The notes under the pieces were generated by a model. The model worked only from the letters and a program-made list of their open reading frames with translations, ran no database searches and was not told the DNA's origin. 64,000 bases of DNA. Origin: a virus. Below are positions 779 through 45,320 of this stretch, piece after piece. The position numbers and the translations under genes were made by a program. The stretch is from positions 1-64,000 of IMG/VR virus record IMGVR_UViG_3300033148_002122. One strand, 5' to 3'. Numbering within the stretch: the first letter of the stretch is position 1; every line of letters begins with the position of its first letter.

Positions 779-850
779 AGATAACCGAGAGCGATGAACC
801 CTGGTCGTGGTACTGCACACTGTCCTAGAACGAGATATTTGGAGGAAGCA

Positions 851-4429: not shown

Positions 4430-4472
4430 CCTGGATATGAAATATTGGTGAAGCTAAATTTGGAGGATTGGT

Positions 4473-7228: not shown

Positions 7229-7425
7229 TAAAATTAAGTAAGAAATTTAAAATAGGGAGATTTGGTCAAGACTCTGTAGATGAGGCAAAGTGGAGAGACA
7301 CGGAACAGAGGGTAATGCCAGTTTTCTTGGAAGAAGATGATATTATTAGTATACAAATGGCTCTGCTAACACTAGAAGAATACGAGAAAGGCGAACAATG
7401 GTTAATAATCCCAAAGCTACCGTAG
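7225..7425 (+). CDS. small hypothetical protein
   Basis: 66 residues. ATG 7225 overlaps the stop of the upstream enzyme (ATGA) and has GAAGGTG before it. Basic N-terminus, acidic C-terminal half, predicted helical. It overlaps the glycosyltransferase gene by 28 bases. Not recognised. Confidence 0.6.
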   Translation: MIKLSKKFKIGRFGQDSVDEAKWRDTEQRVMPVFLEEDDIISIQMALLTLEEYEKGEQWLIIPKLP

Positions 7426-8201
7426 TTATACCAACACACAAGCTAGAATCGCGTGAGGGTAATGTTGTTAGCCTGCTTAGTAGTATTACCAAAGTCTGTG
7501 ACTCAGACTTATATCAGGTAGTAGTCATTATTAATAATCCAGTTCTTGCTAGATTATTTGGTGTTAGTAACACTAAAAAATATGATGTAATGCCTGGAAC
7601 AAACATAATGACTGTTAACTTGTTTGATAACTACGGTTTATCAACGGCATGGAATGCAGCGATAGAAGTAGCTAAGGGTGAATACCTAATGTTTATTAGT
7701 CATGACGTAATACTAACTGAACCAAATAATATTTTTGAAAAAATGATTGCCTTGAAAGAAACCTATGAGATTCTAGAAGATGATGAAGTCTTCGTATTTG
7801 GTGTTGAGGGTACAATCCAGACAGTTGGTAAAAGAGTTCGTATAGTGAATAGATATGAAAATGGTCAGTTTGTTAAAACACTTAGGGTTGATGAAGTCAG
7901 TGGTTTCCTATTTGGAATACACTCAAAGTATATGACAAAGAATTTCTTTGATGATAGTTTATCACCCTGTTTTTATGAAGAGTTGGATCTTTGTATGAGA
8001 GGAAGGGAACAGAAGCTATCAAATATTATTATACCTGGGATAAACTATAAGCATGAGTTCGGGATTAGTGCTAATAACCCGCGTACAACAATGCTTAAGT
8101 GGAAAACTCTAGATGGAATAGAGATGGAAGAATCACTATGGTCTATTAACAGGCGTAATAAGAGTCACTTAGAGGAAAAATGGGGTATTACTATTGGATA
8201 A
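7398..8201 (+). CDS. family 2 glycosyltransferase
   Basis: 267 residues, ATG 7398 after GAAAGGCG. It opens with a Rossmann-like strand V-V-I-P-T-H, then V-V-I-I-N-N, G-L-S-T-A-W-N-A-A-I, and G-E-Y-L-M-F-I-S-H-D, where a D-x-D-like S-H-D replaces the usual metal-binding D-D-D. Later C-F-Y-E-E-L-D-L-C matches the conserved E-D-x-D-L of GT2 enzymes. It transfers a sugar from a nucleotide donor to an unknown acceptor, in the cytoplasm, with no membrane segment. It overlaps the epimerase gene, which suggests a shared pathway. Confidence 0.82.
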   Translation: MVNNPKATVVIPTHKLESREGNVVSLLSSITKVCDSDLYQVVVIINNPVLARLFGVSNTKKYDVMPGTNIMTVNLFDNYGLSTAWNAAIEVAKGEYLMFISHDVILTEPNNIFEKMIALKETYEILEDDEVFVFGVEGTIQTVGKRVRIVNRYENGQFVKTLRVDEVSGFLFGIHSKYMTKNFFDDSLSPCFYEELDLCMRGREQKLSNIIIPGINYKHEFGISANNPRTTMLKWKTLDGIEMEESLWSINRRNKSHLEEKWGITIG

Positions 8202-9192
8202 AAAAATAGTTGTAACTGGAGGAGCAGGATTTATAGGCTCACACGTAGTTGATGTTCTTGCTAATGATGGAAATGAAGTTCATGTAATTGATGATTATTC
8301 GGGAGCTTACAGAGGTAAGTTTGAGAACAATCTTGCTGTATACAATGATGTGAGTGTGGCTAGTAAAGAAGCACATGAACTTATAAGTAGTATAGAACCC
8401 AACGAGATATGGCACTTGGCTGCGAATGCGCGTGAGGGTGGTTCGTGGTTTCAGCCAAAAAATATAGTTGAACGAAATTCATACGGTTTTATAAATATTC
8501 TTGAAGCTGCTATTAGTGGAGGTAAGCTAGACAAGTGTATACTATTTTCTAGTATGTCAGTTTATGGCAGCGAAACACCTCCTTTTACTGAGGACATGAC
8601 TCCCCAGCCAGAAAATCCATATGCAGTTTCCAAGTATGCAGCGGAACAGTATCTAAGGCTATTATCGCCTTTGTATGACTTCAGTTGGCTTGTAATTAGA
8701 CCACACAATGTGTTCGGTGAGAGAGTCTATAGACACGATAAAATCAGGAACGTAATAGCGATTTTCTGCAATCAAATACTACTGGGTGAACCAATCTACA
8801 TCTACGGAGATGGTAAGCATACTAGGGCACACTCCTATATATACGACTGTATTGGTCCGATTATGAGGGCAGGTAGTGAGATAAATAACGAGGTTATAAA
8901 TATAGGTGGAAATAAAAATTATACAATTTATGAAACAGCAGATTTAGTAAGAAAGGCAATGGGTCAGCCAGATTGGGAAATTGTATTCCTACCAAAACGC
9001 TATAGAGAGGTTCCAGATGCCTACTGTGATCATAAAAAAGCTGAAAATTTATTATCTTTTAAAGAACACATAGGTGCAGATAGCGGAATTCAGCTAGTTT
9101 CTGAAGCTTTTATGTATGAAGGTCCGGTGCAATACAAAGATAATGAACCACTTGTGTTAAATCACAAATTAATTCCAAAAACATGGAAATAA
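8194..9192 (+). CDS. NAD-dependent nucleotide-sugar epimerase/dehydratase (SDR)
   Basis: 332 residues from TTG 8194, inside the end of the glycosyltransferase gene; no in-frame ATG precedes the cofactor motif. It shows G-G-A-G-F-I-G-S-H, then D-D-Y-S-G, L-A-A-N-A-R, S-S-M-S-V-Y-G and catalytic Y-A-V-S-K (SDR Y-x-x-x-K), and R-P-H-N-V-F-G, all typical of UDP-glucose 4-epimerase relatives. It interconverts or dehydrates an NDP-sugar. The substrate is not determinable from motifs. It is followed by a structured non-coding gap and probably ends a transcription unit. Confidence 0.85.
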   Translation: MDKKIVVTGGAGFIGSHVVDVLANDGNEVHVIDDYSGAYRGKFENNLAVYNDVSVASKEAHELISSIEPNEIWHLAANAREGGSWFQPKNIVERNSYGFINILEAAISGGKLDKCILFSSMSVYGSETPPFTEDMTPQPENPYAVSKYAAEQYLRLLSPLYDFSWLVIRPHNVFGERVYRHDKIRNVIAIFCNQILLGEPIYIYGDGKHTRAHSYIYDCIGPIMRAGSEINNEVINIGGNKNYTIYETADLVRKAMGQPDWEIVFLPKRYREVPDAYCDHKKAENLLSFKEHIGADSGIQLVSEAFMYEGPVQYKDNEPLVLNHKLIPKTWK

Positions 9193-11024: not shown

Positions 11025-11053
11025 TTGACAAACCAAAGTTGGTGTGATACAAT
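11025..11053 (+). promoter_or_regulatory. perfect-spacing sigma70-like promoter match
   Basis: TTGACA (11025-11030), 17 bases, TACAAT (11048-11053). This is the best sigma70 match noticed in the window. The -10 box overlaps the likely ATG at 11052, so transcripts would start inside the gene and serve genes downstream (11447 onward) rather than this one. It may also be chance within coding sequence. Confidence 0.35.
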
Positions 11054-11432
11054 GAAGATTACTTACATAGGGGTTCCCATCTACTACGCCCCAGTAGAAG
11101 ACTCTACGGCTTTTCTATTTGATTCTACTTTCCACGAACCAGGGAATGAAGTGATTATGGAAAGAAAGACAGCAAAAGCTTTGATGGTTGGTTTTGATGT
11201 CCACGAAGATGGATCTAAGAATATATACAAAATTATTAAGTATAGTGACTACACAGGGCTGGAGCAGGAATGGGGAGACAGTACGTCTGTTACTATATTA
11301 GACACTGCTGTTCAAGATATTGTTGACTTATATTCTGCCAAACGACTAGATCCAGATTCTACAGTTTCGGAAACACCAAGTAGTTACCAAAGAAGTAACA
11401 CACTTGCTAGGAGTTTTACTAAAACAGTATAA
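11052..11432 (+). CDS. small virion-associated protein with DST triplets
   Basis: 126 residues from ATG 11052; TTG 11025 is an alternative that adds nine residues, and neither has a strong Shine-Dalgarno. It contains four Asp-Ser-Thr triplets, a density far above chance. Its first residues (M-K-I-T-Y-I-G-V-P) resemble those of the protein at 39266 (M-K-I-S-F-L-N-V-P), which lies just before the major capsid gene, so it may be a related beta-sandwich virion protein. Function otherwise unknown. Confidence 0.6.
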   Translation: MKITYIGVPIYYAPVEDSTAFLFDSTFHEPGNEVIMERKTAKALMVGFDVHEDGSKNIYKIIKYSDYTGLEQEWGDSTSVTILDTAVQDIVDLYSAKRLDPDSTVSETPSSYQRSNTLARSFTKTV

Positions 11433-11446
11433 GGAAGAAGGATAAT

Positions 11447-12289
11447 ATGCTAAGGATATTGGTTCCATTTTATAATGCTGCTGAAACTTTACCAAGGTTA
11501 ATAGAGAGTTTAGCAGCACAGACAGATCAGAACTTTGATGTATTGTTTTTAGATGATGCGTCTAAAGATGATTCTGGCAAGGTAATACATAACATCATAC
11601 ACGATGATTTTCCATCCTTAAGTTCGAAGGTGGATTATTACAAGAATGATGAAAATATTGGTATAATGTGTAACGTAATTAAAGGTGTTGATCTTACAGA
11701 CGATCACGTAATTTGCTGCATATGCGATGGTGATGATTTTTTATCAGAGGATGCAGTTGAGGTAGTTAGTAAACACTACAGTGAAAACGACATAGACTTT
11801 GCGTGGTCTAACTTTACATTCTATCCTTCTCTACGCCCCGGTTTTTCAAGAGAAATTAATAGAGATATATCTGCTAGGATATTCTATCCATTTTGGTGGA
11901 TGAGTCATATGCGTACATGGAAGGCAGGTACGTTTAAAAAGATCGACTACGAGAAGAAATTTAAGTGGCAGGGCGAGTGGTTTGACTACGCAAATGACTT
12001 AGCTATCATGTTTGCACTTCAGGAAGTAACTGACAAGTATATGTATATTCCTTATCAGCTATACTTTCATGATGTAAGTGAGGGAGAGAATACAACCAGG
12101 AGTCCAGAGAAGAGAGAGAAGCAACTTATAGAAGAAATGCGCATTAGATCTCTAGTCGATGACAAAGATGCACTATTAGCTAACCAGTATTATAGACATA
12201 TAATAGTTTTCTATGAGGGTATAATGGATGCTATTAGTAAGGATGAAAACTTAAAAGGAATACTCAAGGAGAAAGGATTTCCTGTATAA
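11447..12289 (+). CDS. family 2 glycosyltransferase
   Basis: 280 residues, ATG 11447 after GAAGAAGGA. Classic GT2 N-terminus: L-V-P-F-Y-N-A-A-E-T-L-P-R-L, S-L-A-A-Q-T, F-L-D-D-A-S-K-D-D-S-G, then the metal-binding C-D-G-D-D-F. Length covers the GT-A catalytic domain with about 60 extra C-terminal helical residues. No membrane segment, so it acts in the cytoplasm. It is coupled to the methyltransferase-like gene (TAATG overlap), suggesting that one glycan is assembled and then methylated. Confidence 0.85.
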   Translation: MLRILVPFYNAAETLPRLIESLAAQTDQNFDVLFLDDASKDDSGKVIHNIIHDDFPSLSSKVDYYKNDENIGIMCNVIKGVDLTDDHVICCICDGDDFLSEDAVEVVSKHYSENDIDFAWSNFTFYPSLRPGFSREINRDISARIFYPFWWMSHMRTWKAGTFKKIDYEKKFKWQGEWFDYANDLAIMFALQEVTDKYMYIPYQLYFHDVSEGENTTRSPEKREKQLIEEMRIRSLVDDKDALLANQYYRHIIVFYEGIMDAISKDENLKGILKEKGFPV

Positions 12290-13092
12290 TGGGTAGGAAC
12301 ATACTAGAAAACTCCCTGGCTGAAGCTATCAGAGGTATGAAGGCTAAGAGTGTTATTGATGTTGGAGGTGCTTGGGAATCTACAGGACTTGCCACGCATA
12401 TTTTAGATATTGAGCCAAGGAATAATCGGCATAATTTTGCTGATTGGATACAGGGTGATATTTGTCAGAAAGAAACGTGGGACCAATTTGATGATAATCA
12501 GTTTGATTTTGCTATATGTACACAGACTTTAGAAGATATCTATGATCCTATCACAGTGTGTAATGGTTTATCAAGGGTAGCAAGATGTGGCTACTTAGAG
12601 ACACCCTCTATGATAGGTGAAATAACTAGATTCTCAGATAGAAAAAAAGATAATATTGAGGCAGATATTAATGGCTATCTACACCATAGATATATTATTG
12701 AAGTTATTAACGGAACTGATAAAGAGCGCATATCAGTATTACCCGTTGTGAGTCCAGAGTGGAAACCAAAGGGAAAGTTTATTCAATTTGACGATGATGC
12801 TATAATAGTTGCCATACCAAAAACAGCAAGAGTATTGATTAATGATCTACTAAAAAATAATGTAATAGCAGTTGATACTAACAACTGGAATAGAGTAAAT
12901 TTTGTTGGATTATTTTGGAAAGAAAGTATAAAGTGTGTTATGCTAGAAAATGATGCACTTGACTATATTAGATATAAAATACTGGAGATAACTGAACCAG
13001 GATATTTACCTAACTATAATCCTATAAAATTACAGCGCAGGTTTGCCGAAGTTTTTGAACCAGGAGGAAATAATGGGATTTTGGAATCATGA
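12289..13092 (+). CDS. SAM-dependent methyltransferase-like protein
   Basis: 267 residues. The N-terminal half follows a class I methyltransferase pattern: V-I-D-V-G-G-A-W (motif I), I-L-D-I-E-P, W-I-Q-G-D-I-C, F-D-F-A-I-C-T-Q-T-L-E-D-I (motif IV region), then a post-motif strand. Motif I lacks the usual G-x-G-x-G, so activity is not certain. The C-terminal third is unassigned. Location between two glycosyltransferases suggests sugar methylation. It overlaps both neighbours. Confidence 0.6.
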   Translation: MGRNILENSLAEAIRGMKAKSVIDVGGAWESTGLATHILDIEPRNNRHNFADWIQGDICQKETWDQFDDNQFDFAICTQTLEDIYDPITVCNGLSRVARCGYLETPSMIGEITRFSDRKKDNIEADINGYLHHRYIIEVINGTDKERISVLPVVSPEWKPKGKFIQFDDDAIIVAIPKTARVLINDLLKNNVIAVDTNNWNRVNFVGLFWKESIKCVMLENDALDYIRYKILEITEPGYLPNYNPIKLQRRFAEVFEPGGNNGILES

Positions 13093-19455: not shown

Positions 19456-19743
19456 ATGGCTAAGGGACAGAAGTTTGAATACCCTCTTGCGTTTGTAACC
19501 TGGGAGGATGCCTATTCACACGATGATTGGGTTCCTATTGCAGACGCTAGATCCCACACACCCTGCATTGTTCAGAGTGTTGGGTGGTTAGTAGACGAGT
19601 CTGATAGGCACATTACTATTATACAATCTATTACTAGTGACGAAGCTGGAAGTAGAATTACTATCCCTAAAGTTTATATCAAGAACTTAGAAACTCTAAT
19701 GGGTAGTGGAAGGTGGAGAAAAGTAATAAATGAAGACAATTAG
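19456..19743 (+). CDS. conserved-type small protein
   Basis: 95 residues, ATG 19456 after AAGAGG. Predicted beta-rich, with G-W-L-V-D-E-S-D-R-H-I-T-I-I-Q-S, a pattern I associate with short uncharacterised phage proteins, without a known function. It overlaps the next gene by 14 bases and so is probably co-translated with it. Confidence 0.6.
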   Translation: MAKGQKFEYPLAFVTWEDAYSHDDWVPIADARSHTPCIVQSVGWLVDESDRHITIIQSITSDEAGSRITIPKVYIKNLETLMGSGRWRKVINEDN

Positions 19744-21001
19744 TCCATTCTACAACTATTCATATCGTGTTATGCTGTCCAAGCTGATGGATTCTGCTGG
19801 TCATACTATAACATTGAGTGGAGATCATCTTGTCTATATGGTAGCCAAGAGAAATCTTAGTTCATCTAATGAATTATTTAGAATTTATGGGCAGATAATA
19901 GATACAACCACAGGTTACGTATCTTTTCCTCTTTATTACTTTGATAGTACGCACGAACCAGGAACGATCTATGTAGAAGTTAGAGTATCCTACGCAGGTA
20001 CAGAAAGGGTTGCAGGTCAGTACAGGAGTTCAATTGTTCAATCTTTAGGTAGAGCTAGTTTCTATGACATAGATCTTGTCCCACGGTATGATACTCATAT
20101 TATGCTTTATAACAACACACTAGAGGATATAGGTGGAGAACACTTATTAGGTGAGTATGATACGATATTTGTAAATCATGAAAGTTTTAATTACTTACCA
20201 ACGGAATACAGGAATAAAGCTGTTGTCGAATTTTCTTTAATGTCTAACCTCGATTTATTCAAACATGAGATAATAGATGGTGATGAATACGATGACTTTA
20301 TAGACTGTCCAGGTGATCAGGGTATGCCTTCTATAGTAAATGCAGAGGGTGAGTACCTTTACAAGATAGAAGATTCGTGGATGATAGCATTCGTATTCTT
20401 TGTTAGGAGTTTTCTACAAACTTATGGCAATTCCATAAAAGGTATATATCTTAGCAATTTTTATACAGATATGGGAGAGTACTGGATACTAGAGAATGGG
20501 AATGACTTAGTAGTTTGGCCTGATAGAACAGATGACGCTGGTGACTTAGTTCCTGATTGGAACCTGTCAAGACTCCAGTTTATAGAGTCGTTTATTACTG
20601 ATGATATGGATTTGTACACTAATAATGGCATATTAGTTGTTGGAGGCTCAGTTAGAGAGCTTAGTGACACAAAGAGAATGGCTATTAATACTAGCGTTTC
20701 TGGCCCAGTTAATCATAAAGAGTTATTTGAGCGTATTGAGGACGATGGGCTAACCTACCCTGATTACTACGCGCAGTCTGGAGATTTTATTCAAATAAGT
20801 GGTTTGGATTCTACAGGTCTGTACGGACTATGGGCAGACAATGAGTATGGTGAAGGACAAGTTAATCTTGAGAGAGCGTCTAGGGTATGTATTGGAAGAC
20901 TCTGTTCTCTTGGATTGGCTTATGGTGAGACTCCAGATCTGGGTGAAGGTCTATATAGTATAGTACTAGACCCAAGGAGTCCAAGGTGGTATAATTATTA
21001 A
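19730..21001 (+). CDS. glycosidase-like (GHL TIM-barrel) protein
   Basis: 423 residues, ATG 19730 with GGTGGAG upstream. An N-terminal beta-sandwich (about 1-115), with F-D-S-T-H-E-P-G-T, precedes a barrel-like region. Residues 238-244 (G-I-Y-L-S-N-F), then N-G-I-L-V-V-G-G, G-D-F-I-Q-I-S-G and S-L-G-L-A-Y-G-E-T-P align in order with G-I-F-L-D-D-F, D-G-K-M-I-V-N-G, G-D-Q-L-L-V-Y and S-V-G-V-G-Y-A-V-T-P in the protein at the right edge of the window. Both look like glycoside-hydrolase-like barrels. Here the catalytic D-D is replaced by S-N, so the domain may bind rather than cut sugar. Confidence 0.55.
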   Translation: MKTISPFYNYSYRVMLSKLMDSAGHTITLSGDHLVYMVAKRNLSSSNELFRIYGQIIDTTTGYVSFPLYYFDSTHEPGTIYVEVRVSYAGTERVAGQYRSSIVQSLGRASFYDIDLVPRYDTHIMLYNNTLEDIGGEHLLGEYDTIFVNHESFNYLPTEYRNKAVVEFSLMSNLDLFKHEIIDGDEYDDFIDCPGDQGMPSIVNAEGEYLYKIEDSWMIAFVFFVRSFLQTYGNSIKGIYLSNFYTDMGEYWILENGNDLVVWPDRTDDAGDLVPDWNLSRLQFIESFITDDMDLYTNNGILVVGGSVRELSDTKRMAINTSVSGPVNHKELFERIEDDGLTYPDYYAQSGDFIQISGLDSTGLYGLWADNEYGEGQVNLERASRVCIGRLCSLGLAYGETPDLGEGLYSIVLDPRSPRWYNY

Positions 21002-25427: not shown

Positions 25428-26000
25428 ATGGCTGCTACAGTCGAAATTCATAGTTTTCCGAGTGGATCTGGTGCAGATATTTCTAACGGAAACGTTAGAT
25501 TTAAGCTAGCTGATAATGATACAGTGGATACTGACAATCCATGTCGTATTCCTACAGCGGATCAGGTTAATAACGAGGAAATCCCAACAACTTATTCATA
25601 TATTAAACACTTTAAACTGTACATTGCTACTGATCCCACAACTGCAATTTCTAATCTGAGGTTCTTTGTTAAGCAAACAGAGATAGGAACTGGAATTTAT
25701 TTGTTTGGTGATTCAACAAGTGTTGATCATAACCCACCAGCTAGTGCCGATAGTACAGGTGACACCACTTGTACGTGGTCGCTTATTAGCGGAGGTGCTA
25801 CACACGTTTGGAGTCCTGCATCTCCACAGGTTGTTCAGGCTGGTGATGTACTCACTAATGGTAACGCACCAGAGTACGATGATGCGGCTGAACAGGATTT
25901 TGTTACACTTCAGTTGATGATAGATGATAGTGCATCACCTGGAACTTATCCTGCTGCTGAAGATGATGGTGTATTTACTTATCGTTACGATGAGAACTAA
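25428..26000 (+). CDS. putative minor virion protein (DST-containing)
   Basis: 190 residues, ATG 25428 after GAGAGG. Beta-rich, Asp/Thr/Ser-rich, acidic; two Asp-Ser-Thr triplets (F-G-D-S-T-S-V and S-A-D-S-T-G-D). No Cys-rich or enzymatic motifs. Its position after terL and before a beta-helix appendage suggests a head- or tail-surface protein. Followed by a palindrome. Confidence 0.6.
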   Translation: MAATVEIHSFPSGSGADISNGNVRFKLADNDTVDTDNPCRIPTADQVNNEEIPTTYSYIKHFKLYIATDPTTAISNLRFFVKQTEIGTGIYLFGDSTSVDHNPPASADSTGDTTCTWSLISGGATHVWSPASPQVVQAGDVLTNGNAPEYDDAAEQDFVTLQLMIDDSASPGTYPAAEDDGVFTYRYDEN

Positions 26001-26430: not shown

Positions 26431-27870
26431 ATGCCAATTTATTATGTAGACGCAGACAATGGTAGTGATGCCGCTGATGGCTTATCTACAGGTAACGCAT
26501 GGCAGACCAATTCCAAAGTATTTAGTGTGACCTTCACAAGAGGTGATACTATCTATTATAGGCGTTGCGAGGGTTACTATGATAACACTTCTGGGGATGT
26601 CTTTTCATCGTTTACAGGTCAGTTAACTCCACATACCCACACTAAGTTTGTTGGTGATGATGGGAACTTTGGAATTGGAGATTGGAGTAGTGATACAACT
26701 ACCGTTGTTTGGATGAACAACGGATCAAGTACTTATGCACTTAGGATGTCATCTAACTTAACTAACTATGGACTTATATTTCAAAATATTGAATGGGCTG
26801 GCACTGGTTCAGGTCCACGTTACCGTTCTGGTGGCAACAACATATTTAAGCATTGTGTGTTCAGAGGACAGAATCATTCGTATCCACTAAACAAAAAATT
26901 GGGAAAATACGCTATATTTTTGGATTATGATTATGGTACAACAACATTTGATGGATGTATATTTGATACATTTACAGTGGCTGGTGAAGAGCCTCTTTAT
27001 GGTGTTTACTCATATTCCAAGATTATTTTCAAAGGTTGTTTATTCCATGATTGTAACTATCTAGCGAAACTAAGTGTGTGTTCAACAGATTTTGAAGCTA
27101 TTGATTCTACATTTACTATGAATACTTCAATGTTTACAGCAAGTTCTCGTCAGGCTAACGCCGAACAGGCTTACTACAAATTTGACAGATGTGCGATATC
27201 CATTAATGATCAGCAGTTTACTTTGGATGAAAAAGTTTGGTCCTCTGTTCCCTTCCACTACTCACTTACAGACTGTGAGGAAGACTGGCAATATACTTTC
27301 TCTGGTGAGCCTTCCTATGGTTACTTTGAGAATATTAACGATGTTCCAGGCCCAATCGGGAGAGGTTTTATTAAGCTTGGGATTATGTATGATAGTACAT
27401 CAGAGCAAAGATCTGGTGGCGGCGACTCGATGATTCACTACCGACATTTTTACTTCAACGCAAATCCTGACATTCCACCATGGATTGCTGACTCTACTCA
27501 TAGAATTATGCTTTCTGACTGGAGAATAAATATACCAGATGCAGATGGTGCTAATGAATACAAAGTTTCGGCCTGGGCGCAAGCAACTGAAGGATGGGGA
27601 GCAGCAGGTACACTGTATGGTCTTGACAAAAGCATGTATATTACTGTTGAGTACATAGACGTTAATGCAGAAGATGGTGTTGAAATAATACCCTATGACG
27701 TTGCCGACAGTACAGAAAGAATCACAGCAGATGATACCTGGACTGAACTTGTTGTAAACTTTGTTCCGGGTAGAGCGGGTCCAGCATATATTAAAACATG
27801 GTTGTCAGATCATTACAATGAAGATGCACATTTTATACTAGATAACTATATTGAGGTTACTAAAGTTTAA
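26431..27870 (+). CDS. beta-helix appendage protein with C-terminal carbohydrate-binding-like domain
   Basis: 479 residues, ATG 26431 (weak GGGTG upstream). The start Y-Y-V-D-A-D-N-G-S-D-A-A-D-G is typical of right-handed beta-helix phage fibres. The middle shows coils with repeated F-x-x-C-x-F and Y-G-L-I-F-Q-N-I-E-W elements. The last 160 residues form a beta jelly-roll-like domain (W-T-E-L-V-V-N-F-V-P-G) similar to carbohydrate-binding modules. Four Asp-Ser-Thr triplets. Likely host-surface polysaccharide binding. Confidence 0.65.
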   Translation: MPIYYVDADNGSDAADGLSTGNAWQTNSKVFSVTFTRGDTIYYRRCEGYYDNTSGDVFSSFTGQLTPHTHTKFVGDDGNFGIGDWSSDTTTVVWMNNGSSTYALRMSSNLTNYGLIFQNIEWAGTGSGPRYRSGGNNIFKHCVFRGQNHSYPLNKKLGKYAIFLDYDYGTTTFDGCIFDTFTVAGEEPLYGVYSYSKIIFKGCLFHDCNYLAKLSVCSTDFEAIDSTFTMNTSMFTASSRQANAEQAYYKFDRCAISINDQQFTLDEKVWSSVPFHYSLTDCEEDWQYTFSGEPSYGYFENINDVPGPIGRGFIKLGIMYDSTSEQRSGGGDSMIHYRHFYFNANPDIPPWIADSTHRIMLSDWRINIPDADGANEYKVSAWAQATEGWGAAGTLYGLDKSMYITVEYIDVNAEDGVEIIPYDVADSTERITADDTWTELVVNFVPGRAGPAYIKTWLSDHYNEDAHFILDNYIEVTKV

Positions 27871-27935: not shown

Positions 27936-28316
27936 ATGCCATTGTCAGACTTCTATGCAAAAAGCTACATAAAAAAACAAGAGTGCCCTGTCTGTAAAGA
28001 CGCAGGGCACGATTGCTTTGTAGATGAGGATGGACACTGGCCTATTCTTGGTTGGGTAATTTTTTACGGTGATGGACAGTTTTATACTAGCAAAGAATAC
28101 TCTGTGGAAGATCTTCCGTGTGAAGATGTACAAATTATAAAAGTATACATACAAAAAGAAGGTAAAGTTAGAACAATCATAGACTTAGGAGAAGATGATT
28201 ATCAACTTCCTGGGAGTGACAGAATATTATATGGCAGGTGGCTTGGTAGCCTAAAATATCCAGAAGCATATAAGTATATTACTCACTTGGCACTCAAACA
28301 TGAGTGGGTGGAATAA
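27936..28316 (+). CDS. hypothetical protein
   Basis: 126 residues, ATG 27936 after TAGGGG. One Cys pair (C-P-V-C) with a further Cys near residue 26 and several aromatic residues; predicted mixed alpha/beta. Stop codon TAA overlaps the ATG of the giant repeat protein by one base, so expression is coupled. No function assigned. Could assist folding of the repeat protein, by context only. Confidence 0.6.
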   Translation: MPLSDFYAKSYIKKQECPVCKDAGHDCFVDEDGHWPILGWVIFYGDGQFYTSKEYSVEDLPCEDVQIIKVYIQKEGKVRTIIDLGEDDYQLPGSDRILYGRWLGSLKYPEAYKYITHLALKHEWVE

Positions 28317-31300
28317 TGGCTACTAGATATTATTTAGTTAATACTAATGTTGAGACTACTTGTGATTCTGGTGCCGCCCAGGTTGACAACTACGATCTAA
28401 ATAGGACTCAGGGTGCAGCCAATACTGTAAATCTAACACTAGGCGGTCTAACCGCAATCAACACATGGCTTGAGGTTGGTGCGTTTGATCTTGACGTTTC
28501 GGGTGACACCCCAGTTGATGGCGTGTATGACGTTTCCATAGACGTTCAAGCTATTGATAGAGATCTTGAGGGGCGTTTTAGAGTTCAATTAATAGATGAT
28601 GGCGATTGTAGCATTGATCAAAATAGTACGTATTCAACTACTTTTACATCTACTGGAATAAAAACATTAACCACGGCCTCACTAACAGTCGGTGTTACGG
28701 AACGTCTTCGTGTTTCAATCGAAGCTCAAACTATTAAGTCTAGTCACTCGGATCAAATTCTTGGTGTTTACACAGGCGATGCTGATTCCTATGTTGATGC
28801 CCCTTGGACCCCCCTAGATACGTTTGATTCTACGGGTAGTTATTCTTCTAACTTAATATTTGAAACAGACTCAACTGGTAGCTATTCAGCGAATTTTAAG
28901 GCAACTTACGATTCTACAGCTAGTATTAGCGCACTGATAACAACGTTTCGTCCTGACGATATTTCTGGCGCACAGCTATGGCTTGCAGCAGATCACCTGC
29001 ACGGAACGTACAGCGACAGTGACACAGTAACTTCATGGCCTGATTCTCTAGGAATTCAGCCTAATTTTACTGGTGTCGGAGATCCGATCTATGACGATGC
29101 CGTTATCAACGGCTTGCCAGCAGTTTATTATGACGGCAATGATAGACATAACGCAGAATGTTCTGGTCTATGGGATGCAGGTCAATCTGTTTTTATTGTG
29201 TACCGGAGAGCCACAGGTGATTCAGACATTGCGGTTCTGATCTCTGAGTCTGACAAAAACGCACTCAGCTATAAAGACGAATGGAATTTTTCTGTAGATA
29301 CCTACGAGGTTAATGCAAGCGGCATAAAAACTGTTGCTTATCCTGCTCCTGCTGTTGCTGGTGAATGGGCATACGCAGGGAGTACGTGGACTGACGGTGG
29401 TATAGCTGTCTCATATAGAGATAGCACTGCGTGGAATCAGACTATTATTTGGACAATGACTCCTGTTGATACGGATGTCGAAAATACAGATGTTGCATTC
29501 AGAAGTAATCTAACTTCTTCTTATTTTACTGGTTGGATTGCTGAGATAATTGTTTATGATCGTGAGCTAAACTCTACTGAGCGCGATATAGTATATACAT
29601 ACCTGAGAAAGAAGTATGCTTTTCCAGAAGCTGCATCCTTAGAAACCTATGACTCTACAGGCAGCTATTCTTCAAATCTAATTCTAGAAACAGATTCAAC
29701 TGGATCTTATAGTTCTAGTCTAATGCTTGCGATAGATTCAACAGCTAGCTATTCGGCCAACCTGTTTGGTTTACTGGACTCCACTGGTTCGTATAGTGTT
29801 AATTTAATATTTGAAACAGATTCAACAGGTTCGTATTCAACTCTTCTTACAGACTTGTACGATTCAACTGGTTCGTATAGCACCAATCTAAGAGTTGAGG
29901 TTGATTCAACTGCTAGTTATTCTTCCGTACTAACCGGAGCAACTGACTCAACTGGTTCTTACAGTTCTAACTTATGGCTTCAGATAGATTCTACAGGTTC
30001 GTATTCAACTCTTCTTACAGACCTGTATGATTCTACTGGTTCGTATAGTACTAATTTATCTAGTGTGGGCGACTCAACAGCTAGTTATTCTGTTAATCTG
30101 TTTGGTTTATTAGATTCTACTGGCTCGTATAGTGCCAGTCTGTCTAGTGTAGGTGACTCAACAGGCAGTTATTCAGCTAATCTTGTTACTGAGTTTGATT
30201 CTACAGGTAGCTATTCAGCCCATCTATTCGGGACACTTGACTCCACGGCAAGCTATTCAGCCCATGTTATAAGCGGTTCTGAGTCTGTTACAGTAGCCTA
30301 CAAGGCAGATTTTTATAAAGGTTTTAGCTATCTTGTAGACTCTACAACAACCATCGGTATAACATTATCTTGGCAAAACGGTTTTCCACAGTATTTACAG
30401 CAAGAGCCTGTTTCTGCTGGCGTTGATACCTATGATTCAACAGGTTCGTATTCTACTAGTTTAACAGGAATAGTTGATTCAACAGCAAGTTATTCTGCAA
30501 ATCTTCTTTTAACTCAGGACTCCACAGGTAGTTATTCTGCAAATCTGTTGACAGTATTAGACTCAACAGGAAGCTATTCTGTACACTTATTTACAACTCT
30601 GGACTCTACTGGATCCTATTCTGTGAATCTTGGGCTAACTACGGATTCAACTGGTTCTTACTCTACAAATCTTGCATTAATTACAGACTCTACTGGTTCA
30701 TACTCCACTAATCTTGAAACAACCGTAGACAGCACAGGAAGCTACTCAGCGAATCTACTAGTAACTTACGATTCTACAGCTAGCTACTCAGCTAACTTAT
30801 TTGGTTTGCAGGATTCTACTGGATCGTATTCGGCTAATCTATCTATATCCTTCGATTCTACAGCTAGCTATTCATCAATCCTTGCCGGAACATTAGATTC
30901 TACAGGTAGTTATTCTGTAACCGTTAAGGGTTCAGCAGATTCTACTGGTAGCTATTCTACAAATCTCTATGGAACTACTGATTCTACTAGTTCGTACTCC
31001 ACAAACCTTAAAACTACACTAGACTCTACTGGAAGTTATTCAGGTCATTTATTTGGAACACTAGATAGCACGGCTAGTTTCTCTGTTTATCTTCTTTCCG
31101 AGCTAGAGCTAGATTCTACTGGCAGCTATTCTACTATTCTAGCTGGTGTACTAGACTCAACAGGGTCGTATAGTACATCACTATTAGAGAGTATGGACTC
31201 GACAGCTAGTTATTCTATAAACTTGGAATTTATTGGTGATTCAACAGCTTCCTATTCTACAAATTTAGAGGCTATTGCTGATAGTACTGGAAGTTACTCT

Positions 31301-32584
31301 GTAGCTCTGTCAAAGACCTATGATAGTACGGGAAGCTATTCAGTAAGCTTATTAGAAAGCTATGATAGTACAGGAAGCTATTCTTCCTACTTAGTGGGAA
31401 CCAAAGATTCTACAGCGAGTTATTCTGCCTATCTAATTTTTGAAGGCCAAGCAGACTCTACAGGCAGCTACTCGTCTTATCTGGTTGGTTCACCAGATTC
31501 TACTGGTAGCTATTCTATAAACTTAGAAGTTACTATAGATTCTACTGGAAGTTATTCTATTAATTTAGAAGAAACTTTTGATTCAACTGGAAGTTATTCA
31601 ACTAACTTAGTAACTACGACTGATTCTACTGGATCATACTCCGTAGACCTTAAGTTAACTTCAGATTCTACAGGATCATACTCTTCAGCTTTGTATGGTC
31701 TTCAGGATAGCACAGGCAGTTATTCTGTATACTTGTTAATAGAGCTAGGAGCAGACTCTACTGGAAGCTATTCTGCTAACTTGTACGGGACTGCCGACAG
31801 TACTGGAAGTATCTCAGTTTCTCTGTTGGAGAAGCAAGATTCTACTGGTTCGTATAGTGCGAATTTAGCTATTAAAACAGACTCTACTGGGTCGTATTCT
31901 AGTTCTCTGTTAGGAGTTCAAGATAGTACAGCCTCATTCTCTGTGTCTATTAAAGGTACTATTGATAGTACGTTTAGTTACAGCACTACGCTCTTTGAAC
32001 TACATGATAGCACAGGCAGTTATTCTTCTAGCCTAATAGCTAAATACGATTCTACGGGTTCGTATTCGTTAGTACTTGAAGGAGGAGATGACTCTACTGG
32101 TTCGTATAGTGTTAGTCTAAAGACTACCACAGATAGTACAGGTTCGTTATCTGTATTATTAACATATACTTATGACTCTACAGGGTCCATATCAGTTTCA
32201 ATACTAAAATCTCAGGATAGTACGGCTTCAGTTTCTGTAGTAATTGGTGGAACTATAGATAGTACAGCAAGTTACTCTGCCTTAGTATCTGGTGAAGTAT
32301 TCAATGTTGATAGTACTGCCAGTTACTCAGTGGCGCTGTATCTAAAGACTGATTCTACCTATAGTTATAGTGTGTTCTTGTCTCCAGATAGACCTTTGGC
32401 GTATGTATACTACGATGGGTTGTCTGCGTATGTAGTAAAAGATGCCCCAGGAAATTCGCAAATTATTGAAAAAAACTACCTTGCAAGCGTGTCCGTAGCT
32501 AAGTTTGATGCGTATACTATACGAGGCATCTATAGTTCGGTTGTTGAAATAATAGATATACACAAGAGAGGCTGTGGTCAATAG
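28316..32584 (+). CDS. giant Asp-Ser-Thr repeat adhesin with LamG-like domain
   Basis: 1,422 residues. ATG 28316 overlaps the previous stop, and GTG 28304 is an alternative start. Order: N-terminal beta-sandwich (1-165); three DST repeats; a concanavalin A/LamG-like domain at about 210-436 (I-S-G-A-Q-L-W-L-A-A-D, E-I-I-V-Y-D-R-E-L); then about 62 DST repeats to residue 1,359; and a C-terminal cap of about 65 residues. The consensus DST(G/A)SYSxNL plus four variable residues has a period of 14. Alternating polar and Tyr/Leu residues suggest stacked beta-strands. The role is probably a fibre or surface adhesin binding host carbohydrate. Codons for the repeat vary freely, so selection is on protein. 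Confidence 0.75.
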   Translation: MATRYYLVNTNVETTCDSGAAQVDNYDLNRTQGAANTVNLTLGGLTAINTWLEVGAFDLDVSGDTPVDGVYDVSIDVQAIDRDLEGRFRVQLIDDGDCSIDQNSTYSTTFTSTGIKTLTTASLTVGVTERLRVSIEAQTIKSSHSDQILGVYTGDADSYVDAPWTPLDTFDSTGSYSSNLIFETDSTGSYSANFKATYDSTASISALITTFRPDDISGAQLWLAADHLHGTYSDSDTVTSWPDSLGIQPNFTGVGDPIYDDAVINGLPAVYYDGNDRHNAECSGLWDAGQSVFIVYRRATGDSDIAVLISESDKNALSYKDEWNFSVDTYEVNASGIKTVAYPAPAVAGEWAYAGSTWTDGGIAVSYRDSTAWNQTIIWTMTPVDTDVENTDVAFRSNLTSSYFTGWIAEIIVYDRELNSTERDIVYTYLRKKYAFPEAASLETYDSTGSYSSNLILETDSTGSYSSSLMLAIDSTASYSANLFGLLDSTGSYSVNLIFETDSTGSYSTLLTDLYDSTGSYSTNLRVEVDSTASYSSVLTGATDSTGSYSSNLWLQIDSTGSYSTLLTDLYDSTGSYSTNLSSVGDSTASYSVNLFGLLDSTGSYSASLSSVGDSTGSYSANLVTEFDSTGSYSAHLFGTLDSTASYSAHVISGSESVTVAYKADFYKGFSYLVDSTTTIGITLSWQNGFPQYLQQEPVSAGVDTYDSTGSYSTSLTGIVDSTASYSANLLLTQDSTGSYSANLLTVLDSTGSYSVHLFTTLDSTGSYSVNLGLTTDSTGSYSTNLALITDSTGSYSTNLETTVDSTGSYSANLLVTYDSTASYSANLFGLQDSTGSYSANLSISFDSTASYSSILAGTLDSTGSYSVTVKGSADSTGSYSTNLYGTTDSTSSYSTNLKTTLDSTGSYSGHLFGTLDSTASFSVYLLSELELDSTGSYSTILAGVLDSTGSYSTSLLESMDSTASYSINLEFIGDSTASYSTNLEAIADSTGSYSVALSKTYDSTGSYSVSLLESYDSTGSYSSYLVGTKDSTASYSAYLIFEGQADSTGSYSSYLVGSPDSTGSYSINLEVTIDSTGSYSINLEETFDSTGSYSTNLVTTTDSTGSYSVDLKLTSDSTGSYSSALYGLQDSTGSYSVYLLIELGADSTGSYSANLYGTADSTGSISVSLLEKQDSTGSYSANLAIKTDSTGSYSSSLLGVQDSTASFSVSIKGTIDSTFSYSTTLFELHDSTGSYSSSLIAKYDSTGSYSLVLEGGDDSTGSYSVSLKTTTDSTGSLSVLLTYTYDSTGSISVSILKSQDSTASVSVVIGGTIDSTASYSALVSGEVFNVDSTASYSVALYLKTDSTYSYSVFLSPDRPLAYVYYDGLSAYVVKDAPGNSQIIEKNYLASVSVAKFDAYTIRGIYSSVVEIIDIHKRGCGQ
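29651..32392 (+). repeat. about 62 copies of a 14-residue (42-bp) repeat
   Basis: Each unit begins Asp-Ser-Thr and most continue G/A-S-Y-S-x-x-L. Unit length is exactly 14 in nearly all copies; units of 16-17 and two longer inserts occur. Asp uses GAT and GAC, Ser uses TCT, TCA, AGT, AGC and TCC, Thr uses all four codons, so DNA identity between units is low while protein identity is high. Three further units lie at 28826-28945. Confidence 0.95.
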
Positions 32585-32934
32585 TGGGCTATCGTACTTC
32601 TAAAATAAGAGAAATTACTGATATATATCAGCATACTACTCCTCTCTTCAGATTTACTATAAATCATGATGGTACTAGTGTTGTGTTGGGTAATCTAATG
32701 ACAGTGAGATTTATTGGGAAGCCACATATTGATTCAAATCATACGTTATGGGACGCCTCTTGTGCCATAGTTGACTCTACGAGGGGAATGTGTGAATGCC
32801 GCCTGTCATTAACTGATACCACAGATTCTTATCACAATATGTACGGAGAGCTAAGGTTTGAAGACCACACAATACAAACAAGTGAAGTAGTTAATCAGTA
32901 TAAATTTGACCTTCTAGAGTCTCTTGGTGGCTAG
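32584..32934 (+). CDS. beta-sandwich protein, BppU-like
   Basis: 116 residues from GTG 32584, overlapping the upstream stop. The pattern P-L-F-R-F-T-I-N-H-D-G...L-G-N-L-M-T-V-R-F-I-G resembles the N-terminal Ig-like domain of phage baseplate upper proteins that anchor fibres. One DST and one DTT triplet. It could link the repeat adhesin to the virion. Similarity is by pattern only. Confidence 0.5.
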   Translation: MGYRTSKIREITDIYQHTTPLFRFTINHDGTSVVLGNLMTVRFIGKPHIDSNHTLWDASCAIVDSTRGMCECRLSLTDTTDSYHNMYGELRFEDHTIQTSEVVNQYKFDLLESLGG

Positions 32935-33467
32935 TGAAAAGTAGATACAAAGATCTGACTGGATGTAAGTTTGATAGATTAACAGTTCTCAAGTACGTAG
33001 GTAGAACTAAAGGTAGACATTCATTATGGCTCTGTAGATGCTCATGTGGTAATAGGGTCAAAATGCTTGATAATAATTTAAAGAGTGGGTCCACTAAATC
33101 ATGTGGGTGTCTCCGTTCAGAATTGGTTTCTGAAAGGCTTAAAGGCGAAAATAATCATAAGTGGGATCCAAATAGAACAGATGAAGAAAGAGAAATTGGT
33201 AGAAATTATCCTGATTATTACCAATTTCGTAAAAAAGTGTATGAAAAAGACAATTATACTTGTGTAGCTTGTGGCTATTCAAGCGGCGGTAATTTAGTAG
33301 CTCATCATTTAGAAAGCTACTCACGAAATCATAATTTAAGAACAAAGCCAAGCAATGGCGTTTGTCTTTGTTCGCCGTGTCACAAGTTCTTTCATGTAGA
33401 ATACGGATTTGGAAATAATACTACTGAACAGTTTCAGGAGTGGATAAGGAGGATAATGGATGAATAG
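32934..33467 (+). CDS. HNH homing endonuclease with N-terminal zinc domain
   Basis: 177 residues from GTG 32934, which overlaps the upstream TAG. N-terminal: L-T-G-C-K-F-D-R-L-T-V-L then C-R-C-S-C-G and S-C-G-C-L, a zinc-binding domain common in phage homing nucleases. C-terminal HNH: Y-T-C-V-A-C-G, V-A-H-H-L, N-G-V-C-L-C-S-P-C-H-K-F-F-H. It is free-standing (no split gene around it) and probably mobile, inserted in the late operon. It overlaps the following glycosyltransferase by 8 bases. Confidence 0.88.
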   Translation: MKSRYKDLTGCKFDRLTVLKYVGRTKGRHSLWLCRCSCGNRVKMLDNNLKSGSTKSCGCLRSELVSERLKGENNHKWDPNRTDEEREIGRNYPDYYQFRKKVYEKDNYTCVACGYSSGGNLVAHHLESYSRNHNLRTKPSNGVCLCSPCHKFFHVEYGFGNNTTEQFQEWIRRIMDE

Positions 33468-34521
33468 GAAAAAGGTTTTACACGTTGTAAACTGGATAGG
33501 ACTAAGGGGTTCGGAAAAGACTTGTTTAAATTTTGCAAAACATACTCCGCAGTATGATCATACGTTTATTGCCAGGACTATCACTAACGCTGAAGCCGAA
33601 AAAGAGTTTATAGGTGTTGGTGAAGTTAGAATAAGTATAAATTTTGGAACAGGTGGAATGTTTGATTATTCTGATATAACACCAGAGTTTATAAAAGAAA
33701 ATAACATTGATATAATTAATGTATACTTACCTGGGGATAACCTACCAAGCTACATAAAAGGATTGAAAGACTGTGGTGTAAAGATTGTTCTAAGTGTATT
33801 GTGTGCCAAGAAATGTCATTTTGGTCCAGAACATTTTGACTCTGTTGTGGTTCTTTCTGAATTTGCAGCATCGTTAAACCCACATTTAAATCCAGAGTGG
33901 GTATATCCAACAGTTGAAGTGCTTGAGTCACAGGCAACAAAAGATGACATACTACTTAGATACTTTGATTTCTATGAATTAGCCAAGAACCCAATACTAA
34001 TATCTAGGGTTGGGTCAATCGAGCAGGTTAAACATGTTGAAGATTTCTTAAAGTTAGCTAAAACTTTTGAATATCTTGACAACGTATATTTTTTGTACGC
34101 AGGTGTAGCTGAGACTAGTTACCTAAATAAACTAAAATCAAAGTATTACGGAATTAATATAGCATATGGTGGTGTATTAACAGAACAGGAAAAGAACGAT
34201 ATCAATGCTGTTAGTGATGTATGTTTGTATCCTACTGAGTTTGAGTCGTTTGGCTATTCACTAGCAGAACCTATGTCGCACGGTGTACCAGTTGTTACCT
34301 ACAATGAATCCGCTTCACCAGAAACAGTTGGTGACGGCGGTGTTGTTGTTGATTTTAATAATTTAGTTCAGTTGACTAAAGCTTTGGCAGAATTAATGTC
34401 TAGACCACTATTACGTAAGAAACTTGGGGATAAGGCTTTAGCAAGGTGGGAAACTAGTTTTGCGCCTGGAATTTATCAAGATAAAGTTGTTGCTATTTAC
34501 GAGGGGTTATTAAATGAGTAA
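33460..34521 (+). CDS. GT4-family glycosyltransferase
   Basis: 353 residues, ATG 33460 after AAGGAGG. GT-B fold: N-terminal V-L-H-V-V-N-W-I-G-L-R-G-S-E; C-terminal V-C-L-Y-P-T-E-F-E-S-F-G-Y-S-L-A-E-P-M-S-H-G-V-P-V-V, the E-x7-E donor-site signature of GT4. It uses a nucleotide-sugar donor in the cytoplasm. It sits between the DST repeat adhesin and the portal gene, an unusual place for a glycosyltransferase. Overlaps both neighbours. A dedicated role in decorating virion proteins is possible but not shown. Confidence 0.85.
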   Translation: MNRKKVLHVVNWIGLRGSEKTCLNFAKHTPQYDHTFIARTITNAEAEKEFIGVGEVRISINFGTGGMFDYSDITPEFIKENNIDIINVYLPGDNLPSYIKGLKDCGVKIVLSVLCAKKCHFGPEHFDSVVVLSEFAASLNPHLNPEWVYPTVEVLESQATKDDILLRYFDFYELAKNPILISRVGSIEQVKHVEDFLKLAKTFEYLDNVYFLYAGVAETSYLNKLKSKYYGINIAYGGVLTEQEKNDINAVSDVCLYPTEFESFGYSLAEPMSHGVPVVTYNESASPETVGDGGVVVDFNNLVQLTKALAELMSRPLLRKKLGDKALARWETSFAPGIYQDKVVAIYEGLLNE

Positions 34522-39265: not shown

Positions 39266-39832
39266 ATGAAAATTAGTTTTCTAAATGTTCCTGAGTGGGC
39301 ACATCTTGGAGAATATCGTTGCAATGGTGTGGTATGGCAGGGTCAGGTTGGTTTATTTGCTGACTCTACCACATTAGAGCTAGGATCTACTGATGCTACT
39401 TGGCATCTGTATGAAATGCGTAAGTTTGTAAAGGCTATTGATAGTACTGCTTACTTGGTTGCTGACTCTACTGGTGTTGTTGAATTCTTCATCATGTATA
39501 AGTGGCCGAATGAAGATGAGTATGAGTCTGCCGAACACGCTTATGGTCAAAAGATTCTAACGAGTACTCCAATTGTATGTGTTCCGTTGACTCCTGGCTT
39601 CCGTATTGAAGACTACGATACCCAGGATAACACATCTGGTCTTGACTCTGGTGTAACTTGGTCAACCGTAGCCAGGAGTGCCCCACTATATCTTAATGGT
39701 GATGGCCGCTGGACTACTGTATATGTTGAGTATTATACATCATTTGCAAGAGCCGTGTTTGAGCAGTATAAGAATGGTTATGTAACTTACCGTATTATTG
39801 AGCCTAGTAATATTTTAAGGGCAACAGTATAA
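39266..39832 (+). CDS. putative head decoration or stabilisation protein (DST-containing)
   Basis: 188 residues, ATG 39266 after AAAAGGAG. It is beta-rich with three Asp-Ser-Thr triplets in residues about 30-75. Its position between protease-scaffold and major capsid matches capsid decoration proteins of HK97-like phages. Its start resembles that of the protein at 11052. No enzyme motif. Confidence 0.6.
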   Translation: MKISFLNVPEWAHLGEYRCNGVVWQGQVGLFADSTTLELGSTDATWHLYEMRKFVKAIDSTAYLVADSTGVVEFFIMYKWPNEDEYESAEHAYGQKILTSTPIVCVPLTPGFRIEDYDTQDNTSGLDSGVTWSTVARSAPLYLNGDGRWTTVYVEYYTSFARAVFEQYKNGYVTYRIIEPSNILRATV

Positions 39833-43925: not shown

Positions 43926-45320
43926 TTGCCACTTACGAAACCTAAACAGATTCAGCATACTCAGTCTGCTTTGGTTATAGATGATTTTATTACTCCGAGA
44001 GTAACTAGTCTTGGTTACTCTGCGGATTTGAATTCAGAAGAAATTGAAGAACTGGGTAATGCGAATATTGTTGAAATTCTTGATGATACTCCAACCATCT
44101 CAATCACTGTAGATGTGAATGATCATGGTTCTCTGGAGACTATCGCTACCTTGTCAAATTTAATTAGAAAACCCTATGGCAATACTGACTATCAGGCAGA
44201 TAGTACATACTGGGAAATTGATGCTACCGATTTTGAGGAGTCTGCTATTGACCTTCTTAATCCTGTAAAAACAACTTCTTCCCAGCAGTATTCTGTATGG
44301 TTGAACAACTGTCAGATTCAAAGTTTAAGTTCTACGTACTCTGTTGATGGGTTTGCTACGGAATCTATTTCCCTAGAAAACTCTGCTCAGTATGTATTTA
44401 TTAATGGATGGAAATACGCAAGAGTTCTTGTTCCGTCATTCATTTATAAAACTGGATCGCATTATGATACAACTACGGCATTTACTACTCATGTTCTGGC
44501 TGCTGATAATGCTCCTGACGCAACATTCCACTTTAACGATCTTGGTGAAACATTCGTTGGTCAGGCAGATTCTACTGCACTGTACTTAACCAAGAACGGT
44601 GTTATTCAGTCTTCTGTGTGGTCATGGGATACAACTGTGCTTGTTTCTCACGATCCAAGCCAGTTAACCTGGGATCCAGAGAGTGATCGACTACGAGTTG
44701 TTGTTATGTCTGAGAGTATTCAAACATTCGCTGGACCTACTGCTACTGGTCGTGCAGGACTACGTAAGGGTAATTCACGAATGTATTTCTGGGACGCTGG
44801 GGATGACGCACCTGGAAGTGCGTTCTTCACAGGACGAGAACCATCAGTTGGAGACAGCAATTATTCTAAGAGAATACAGTCTATTTCTATTGATGTTACC
44901 TGGAATAGAGATGAGCTTGAGCAACTAGGTGAGCATGAACCGTATGATCGTGGTGTTGAATCTACTGAGATTACAGCTACAGTCAGCGCAATTGGAACAG
45001 ATGTTGAGCTATTCGCAATTGCATCTGGATATACCAAAGACGGTACAGGCTGGGTTGATGATGATAATAATGAAATGAAACTAACTGATTTCCAGAATGC
45101 TACGAACCTTGCTGTTCGTATTGATATCTTCAATACAACTGACATTACTCTACACACTGACGCCAACAGAGCGAAGTATATTCTTCTAACTGGTGGTAAG
45201 GTAACTTCGTATGGTAACTCTGTTGATGTACCTGGAAGACAGACTACAGACTTGACTATTACTTTTAACGCAATTAGATGGTACGGAGACAAGATTATCG
45301 CTAATCGTTCTGCTGTCTAA
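43926..45320 (+). CDS. major tail protein
   Basis: 464 residues from TTG 43926, following AAAAAGGAGGG; no in-frame ATG is near. Beta-rich; it sits between the tail terminator-like gene and the tail chaperones, the standard place of the tail tube protein. It is longer than many (about 200-350 residues), suggesting an added surface domain in the middle (about 150-330), which also contains two DST triplets. A terminator-like structure follows. Confidence 0.7.
   Translation: MPLTKPKQIQHTQSALVIDDFITPRVTSLGYSADLNSEEIEELGNANIVEILDDTPTISITVDVNDHGSLETIATLSNLIRKPYGNTDYQADSTYWEIDATDFEESAIDLLNPVKTTSSQQYSVWLNNCQIQSLSSTYSVDGFATESISLENSAQYVFINGWKYARVLVPSFIYKTGSHYDTTTAFTTHVLAADNAPDATFHFNDLGETFVGQADSTALYLTKNGVIQSSVWSWDTTVLVSHDPSQLTWDPESDRLRVVVMSESIQTFAGPTATGRAGLRKGNSRMYFWDAGDDAPGSAFFTGREPSVGDSNYSKRIQSISIDVTWNRDELEQLGEHEPYDRGVESTEITATVSAIGTDVELFAIASGYTKDGTGWVDDDNNEMKLTDFQNATNLAVRIDIFNTTDITLHTDANRAKYILLTGGKVTSYGNSVDVPGRQTTDLTITFNAIRWYGDKIIANRSAV

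Follow-up and report, generated by a model that had tools for sequence, protein, structure and literature searches.

A recurring Asp-Ser-Thr tripeptide in the exterior proteins of a tailed phage suggests a virion surface that the phage itself modifies at one specific motif

Why should a phage repeat one short peptide dozens of times in a single protein, and carry the opening tripeptide of that repeat in many others? We address this question for a window of 64,000 nucleotides, positions 1–64000 of the 116,752-base IMG/VR record IMGVR_UViG_3300033148_002122, a tailed-phage contig in which one giant gene encodes 64 units that each begin with Asp-Ser-Thr (DST). Here, we show that DST is not private to the repeat but is spread over the exterior proteins of the phage, which is the main point and one that an earlier note on this DNA had missed. 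The pattern suggests that this tripeptide marks the places where the virus modifies its own exterior, probably by adding sugars. Open reading frames (ORFs) were called mechanically, and gene counts are approximate. The giant gene and its array lie as follows.

28316..32584, plus strand: giant DST-repeat virion protein of 1,422 residues, with an N-terminal domain, three units, an insert, repeat runs and a C-terminal tail
28826..32392, plus strand: repeat array in the giant ORF, 64 units of DST(G/A)SYSxxLxxxx, broken by two inserts

Two starts are available to the giant ORF, GTG at 28304 (1,426 residues) and ATG at 28316 (1,422 residues), the latter preceded directly by a purine-rich stretch. 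The earlier note had placed an array of about 65 units, with an exact 14-residue period, at 28826–32392. These coordinates are borne out exactly, as is the approximate unit number; the period is not quite exact, with 57 of the 65 DST-to-DST intervals measuring 14 residues, three 16 and one 17, and four spanning inserts. In all, the ORF contains 66 DST tripeptides, 64 at unit starts and two within inserts (residues 373 and 679). The first insert covers approximately residues 217–449, after three repeat units, and the second approximately residues 660–710. Five positions of the unit (D1, S2, T3, S5 and S7) are invariant in 64/64 units, and three are less strict (Y6, 57/64; L10, 56/64; G or A at position 4, 61/64). 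The impression that synonymous codons are scrambled beneath a kept protein pattern also holds: mean nucleotide identity between units is 0.52, versus 0.49 after random recoding with the codon use of the genome. Synonymous sites of the units are thus nearly saturated, which implies that the peptide pattern is held by selection. Because only about 2.9 DST are expected in the giant ORF from its composition, a chance origin of the array is excluded.

Serine codons differ by position within the unit, Ser5 being TCG, AGT or AGC in 53/64 units and Ser2 and Ser7 mostly TCT or TCA. This bias may reflect sequence context or unit ancestry. The phage also carries a tRNA-Ser (anticodon TGA; window 3492–3579), which could help translation of serine-rich fibre proteins, and a tRNA-Pro (4356–4431).

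The tripeptide recurs well beyond the array. Outside the giant ORF, the whole record holds 58 DST in 19 proteins, versus 10.9 expected in 35,721 residues (z = 14.2); the runner-up, among tripeptides with an expectation of at least 1, reaches z = 6.5. Within the D(S/T)X series, DST is enriched 5.3-fold, followed by DTT (2.3-fold, 21 counts) and DSQ (2.3-fold, 12 counts), with ratios of 1.8 for DTL, 1.6 for DSV, 1.3 for DSI, 1.1 for DSL and 0.7 for DSA. None of DSS, DTS, DSG and NST is enriched. The giant ORF spells DST with 22 different 9-mers and the rest of the window with 23, using TCN and AGY serines alike, and these more than 20 spellings from both serine codon families rule out a signal at the DNA level. 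The settings differ as well, among them a beta repeat, a heptad-like repeat and a beta-helix-like ORF. These computations show that it is the DST peptide itself that is under selection, whatever its codons or the surrounding fold.

A pattern scan for DSTGSYS returned 82 stretches, one of which is a syntenic relative, contig IMGVR_UViG_3300007510_000006 (59,372 bases). In the DST-bearing ORFs of the two phages, giant ORFs aside, DST is enriched 13.6-fold and 8.9-fold and DTT 5.3-fold and 2.4-fold; these sets were chosen for DST and are biased upwards, a choice of which the whole-record and D(S/T)X figures above and the gene-order figures below are free. Every other D-x-T in these ORFs stays at or below 2.7-fold (DGT, 1.6- to 2.1-fold) and every other x-S-T at or below 2.1-fold. 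Shuffling residues within the same proteins gives a mean of 7.8 DST, versus 87 observed, and the largest count of any tripeptide across 200 such shuffles is 23.

The following ORFs form the core used in the gene-order comparison (the first five lines) and the main DST-bearing set (the others).

23557-25416: terminase large subunit
34514-36868: portal/minor-head fusion
37537-39246: head maturation protease-like ORF
39851-40852: putative capsid ORF, assigned by position
46423-52692: tape measure
52704..55775, plus strand: fibre protein, 12 DST, five in a 14-residue heptad-looking repeat and three in a domain common to other phages
55785..56378, plus strand: 197-residue ORF, 5 DST
56396..59296, plus strand: 966-residue fibre-like ORF, 7 DST
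59300..64000, continuing to genome position 64435, plus strand: large tail-side ORF, 8 DST
26431..27870, plus strand: beta-helix-like ORF, 4 DST
25428..26000, plus strand: 190-residue ORF, 2 DST
39266..39832, plus strand: 188-residue ORF directly before the putative capsid gene, 3 DST (no DST and one DTT in the relative)
43926..45320, plus strand: 464-residue ORF before the tape measure, 2 DST
19730..21001, plus strand: 423-residue ORF, 2 DST (4 in the relative)
11025..11432, plus strand: 135-residue ORF directly upstream of a GT2 glycosyltransferase gene, 4 DST
32584..32934, plus strand: 116-residue ORF between the giant gene and a GT4-type glycosyltransferase gene, conserved in both phages, 1 DST (with DGT instead in the relative)

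The five ORFs after the tape measure contain 33 DST in 3,929 residues, versus 1 in the 4,394 residues of the five core ORFs (Fisher p = 3e-10); adding the two next very large tail-side ORFs to the former gives 35 in 7,867. The corresponding sets of the relative contain 20 in 3,636 and 1 in 4,423 residues. Capsid, portal, tape-measure, replication and metabolic genes carry DST at about the chance level, the capsid ORF having no copy at all, and the half of the genome after 76805 holds 2 in 12,300 residues. Computation thus shows a concentration of DST in fibre and other exterior virion ORFs. In the tail-side ORF at 59300, DST were counted to the end of the window, and the remaining part, to 64435, holds no more; one stretch of this ORF looks, by eye, like what we take to be a subtilisin motif, and Pfam gave no family in its window part. 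The giant gene itself sits between the terminase and portal genes, so a phage virion or fibre protein fits better than the adhesin proposed in the earlier note.

The relative shares 40 reciprocal best ORF pairs with the window phage, its terminase being 61% identical. Its giant protein, found in the same gene order, is shorter (590 residues, with 15 DST and 6 DTT), and outside it DST again stands far above expectation (43 versus 7.5, z = 12.9, 14 proteins). The ortholog pairs, the giant pair excluded, cover 52 DST sites of the window phage; of these, the relative has DST at 18, another D(S/T)(S/T) at 5, a substitution at 22 and a gap at 7. Seen from the 41 sites of the relative, the numbers are 18, 3, 16 and 4. 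Counting ungapped views from both sides, DST is kept in 36/81 (18 sites), versus 1,922/16,625 (11.6%) for other tripeptides, or about four times as often in the same alignments, where identity of the flanks is 33%. DST sites are therefore both preserved and turned over, which fits a sequon whose number outweighs each place.

Unrelated phages lack the signal. The 78 other viral loci from the DSTGSYS scan contain 41 DST versus 48 expected, and six control phage regions contain 2, 1, 3, 1, 4 and 2 versus 4.2, 2.9, 4.2, 4.9, 4.2 and 3.0, in sum 13 versus 23.4. The top tripeptide of the control phages has a z of at most 5.4, except for a G-A-T repeat of Roseobacter phage CRP-6 (L141) that reaches 13.7 and is the only one above 10. 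These G-A-T repeats, the strongest tripeptide excess there, are probably collagen-like. The domain of the 52704 fibre protein that holds three DST sites is shared by CRP-6, ct3Oc712, 1M3-16 and phiAC-1, and DST is absent at these sites in all four. Together, the expected counts, the shuffles within proteins and the control phages rule out an artefact of composition or repeats. Scans with terminase, glycosyltransferase, fibre and capsid alignments recovered the same single relative and two distant terminase relatives without DST excess, and terminase and capsid scans of genome contigs recovered no relative. Protein searches of an annotated phage collection with the giant, portal, glycosyltransferase and capsid ORFs gave no match, and neither did scans of viral contigs in which the portal or the giant ORF served as a single query sequence.

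The view that the repeat belongs to no named family stands: Pfam gave only matches below cut-off to the giant ORF, and PHROGs and the PDB sequences gave none. The Pfam matches (IS110 transposase, integrin Ig, PGAP1) have a low-complexity look and were rejected, as was a Klebsiella plasmid match to the repeat, which lies beside a replication gene, is for the most part without a listed feature and was judged spurious. A scan for three DST at 14-residue spacing returned 29 stretches, one of them the relative; nine others were read and proved to be different or frame-accidental sequences, the rest being counted only. Other viral contigs (L110, L114, L123, L127 and L134) have many units of another fibre repeat, of the SANWDS(T/V)YT(S/T) type. 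It resembles the giant repeat in its 14-residue period and in having D-S-T in many units, but T is often V, A or L, D is often N or E, and the unit sequence is another one.

The repeat had been suggested to form a stacked beta fibre or amyloid-like solenoid, with structure prediction of four to eight units as a check. An AlphaFold model of seven units predicts a regular beta-rich arrangement of seven strands that turn at DST(G/A); its mean predicted local distance difference test score (pLDDT) is only 64.1, and the scores of its best structural neighbours, beta-solenoids and functional amyloids, are indecisive. These neighbours are CsgA (Z 8.2, root-mean-square deviation (rmsd) 8.6 over 81), the SufB-SufC-SufD entry 5awg (Z 7.2, rmsd 2.3 over 96) and FapC (Z 5.8, rmsd 2.7 over 85), and Foldseek gave no match at E ≤ 0.001. 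The model shares regular strand-turn repeats with the beta-solenoid functional amyloids CsgA and FapC and with the SufB/SufD beta-helix, although the giant repeat has no sequence match to them, and such scores cannot separate kinship from a common arrangement.

What might act on these tripeptides? The window phage is rich in sugar genes, one of which encodes a conserved glycosyltransferase in or beside the structural module.

33460..34521, plus strand: GT4-type glycosyltransferase (Pfam Glycos_transf_1, E 8.7e-17, 61.6 bits, cut-off 26.4)
32934..33467, plus strand: HNH endonuclease-like ORF, weak CapR match
11447..12289, plus strand: GT2 glycosyltransferase, with an ortholog in the relative
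12289..13092, plus strand: methyltransferase-like ORF, Methyltransf_11, just above cut-off
7398..8201, plus strand: GT2-like glycosyltransferase, at the Pfam cut-off
794..1846, plus strand: sugar-nucleotide 4,6-dehydratase/epimerase family
8194..9192, plus strand: sugar-nucleotide epimerase/dehydratase family
genome 77443-78693: NDP-sugar dehydrogenase, above the NCBIfam cut-off
genome 80866-81765: second GT4-like ORF

The GT4 gene lies between the giant and portal genes, and its ortholog in the relative (45% identical) occupies the same slot in the same gene order. Residues E262 and E270 form what we take to be an EX7E-type motif. A protein search of 50,697 annotated phage records with GT4 gave no match. 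In the relative, the slot of the HNH-like ORF is filled by a Methyltransf_24 O-methyltransferase-like ORF that adjoins its glycosyltransferase. Beyond the window are further ORFs of the B12 radical SAM, NAD-synthase-like, heptose-kinase-like, GT9, RmlD-like and DegT/PseC-type aminotransferase kinds. Most NCBIfam names of the sugar genes fall below the equivalog cut-offs, and exact sugars are not assignable. A fibre-like ORF with weak pectinesterase similarity (9522-11000) adjoins the sugar genes. Elsewhere, the ORF at 15007-15582 holds a perfect 12-base tandem repeat (5.7 copies, window 15399-15466), and a B12-dependent ribonucleotide reductase ORF (genome 108246-111680, minus strand; L011:7249-10680) matches an intein splicing domain that encloses an HNH endonuclease domain.

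Capsid and tail proteins of tailed phages are made, and their virions assembled, in the cytoplasm; a modifying enzyme should therefore be cytoplasmic, and a soluble GT4 fits. We infer a covalent modification of DST, and consider it roughly an even call that D-S-T is a sequon for phage-encoded cytoplasmic virion modification, most likely O-glycosylation, with the giant protein as a beta-rich fibre bearing a dense array of sites. A cytoplasmic phage enzyme would recognise D-S-T, and less well the variant D-T-T, and would modify Ser or Thr ahead of virion assembly or while it proceeds. The GT4 protein encoded between the giant and portal genes is the likeliest candidate for this enzyme, with another phage glycosyltransferase as the alternative. 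The enzyme would attach a first sugar to Ser or Thr within D-(S/T)-T; sugar-nucleotide genes and additional glycosyltransferases of the phage could supply or extend this sugar. The giant protein, as a beta-rich fibre or spike with one sequon per 14 residues and 64 in total, would become a sugar-coated rod. If DST(G/A) lies at each strand turn, as in the low-confidence model, one site would be presented per strand. Other fibres would bear scattered sites. Possible purposes would include shielding from host or predator factors, binding of a receptor or matrix, and fibre stiffness. Somewhat more tentatively, we propose a lineage with its own sequon-directed cytoplasmic O-glycosylation, in which selection has sown D-(S/T)-T through the exterior proteins and made one protein a 64-site glycan brush.

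Modification of phage virions is as such of a known kind. In mycobacteriophages, phage-encoded glycosyltransferases likewise act on virion proteins as presumed targets, with glycans at the C-termini of capsid and tail tube subunits (Freeman et al. 2023, as cited in PMC12619734); the candidate sites here differ in being a fixed tripeptide that is dispersed over fibre-side ORFs and absent from the capsid ORF. The general O-glycosylation system of Bacteroidota is described as using the motif D(S/T)(A/I/L/V/M/T) (PMC8550257; PMC12871550) and as acting on non-cytoplasmic proteins (PMC12871550). So described, it shares with our pattern the Asp before Ser/Thr, a Thr allowed in third place and a motif scattered over surface proteins. 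It differs in that our third residue is almost only Thr, that a phage-encoded glycosyltransferase is present and that the proteins proposed as substrates belong to the phage virion and are synthesised in the cytoplasm. The use of the third residue, with DST alone strongly enriched, rules out a broad motif of this type. A literature search on phage glycosylation, sequons, O-glycosylation in mycobacteriophages and Bacteroidota, and 14-residue fibre repeats, with most subscription papers outside its scope, found no phage DST sequon, and there is a moderate chance that the pattern reflects a sequon-directed virion glycosylation that is, on this literature, not yet described.

Several points weigh against a glycosylation sequon. 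The DST pattern is known from two genomes only. At ungapped DST views, D is retained in 64/81, T in 56/81 and S in 42/81; with Ser conserved least of the three, it could be Thr that is modified, or the motif might be of a different nature. Cytoplasmic O-glycosylation of bacterial flagellins is described as motif-free (PMC12871550), which would make a strict sequon an unusual case. GT4 is a huge superfamily, so that adjacency to the giant gene is not proof, and the sugar genes may act in altering the surface of the host or have other functions. Some likely fibre ORFs have few DST (none in the pectinesterase-like ORF; one each at genome 64976-70072 and 70072-76794), and the terminase, though not a protein of the virion exterior, has one DST that is kept in both phages.

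Other readings of DST also have to be weighed. It may serve for non-covalent recognition, with, for instance, a fibre chaperone, a decoration protein or a host lectin docking on DST and the array as a multivalent platform. Short linear motifs in exposed loops would give the same selection and scatter, but docking does not usually call for a motif in so many ORFs that are unrelated, or for 64 copies of it within a single protein, and no partner is evident; we regard this as unlikely. An equally unlikely alternative is that DST is no more than a turn or cap preferred by the folds of this lineage. Asp-Ser/Thr often caps turns, and the predicted position of DST(G/A) in the seven-unit model is consistent with such a role. 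In a model of the 197-residue ORF (55785..56378), too poor to judge exposure at pLDDT 48, the five DST likewise fall within non-strand stretches or at their borders. Against this, neither the homologous fibre domains of other phages, nor the 78 viral loci, nor the six control phages favour DST; similar tripeptides (DSS, DTS, DSG, NST) are not enriched and DGT only slightly so.

Marginally less likely again is that the sequon directs a covalent modification other than glycosylation, such as phosphorylation, acylation or sulfation, by a cytoplasmic enzyme of phage or host. The evidence of selection fits any modification of Ser/Thr equally, and several phage ORFs without a family match could encode the enzyme. 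The part of the ORFs scanned, however, includes no protein kinase or sulfotransferase family, and the many sugar genes and the conserved adjacent glycosyltransferase argue for sugar. More improbable is that the array is a long structural fibre repeat, expanded from a unit that happened to contain DST and unrelated to the scattered copies. Repeat proteins are common in fibres, and the SANWDSTYT-type repeat is an example from unrelated phages; against this, DST is also the most over-represented tripeptide of both genomes outside the giant ORF, and units near synonymous saturation still keep DST in 64/64. Least probable is glycosylation of phage proteins by a host periplasmic D(S/T)X system of the Bacteroidota type, whose motif DST resembles (PMC8550257, PMC12871550), since that system is described as acting on non-cytoplasmic proteins (PMC12871550), tailed virions assemble in the cytoplasm and the broad third position is absent here.

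If DST is indeed a glycosylation sequon, the particle would have a glycoprotein surface with the positions of its glycans deducible from the genome, and phage glycosylation sites would be predictable from sequence, unlike those of flagellin O-glycosylation, described as motif-free (PMC12871550). An enzyme and a three-residue tag would make a compact, sequence-specific glycosylation tool, and the proposal would give a testable account of how a phage coats its surface. Even if the chemistry is another one, it is unusual for selection to favour a single tripeptide in many virion proteins without common ancestry, and the signal is clearly measurable.

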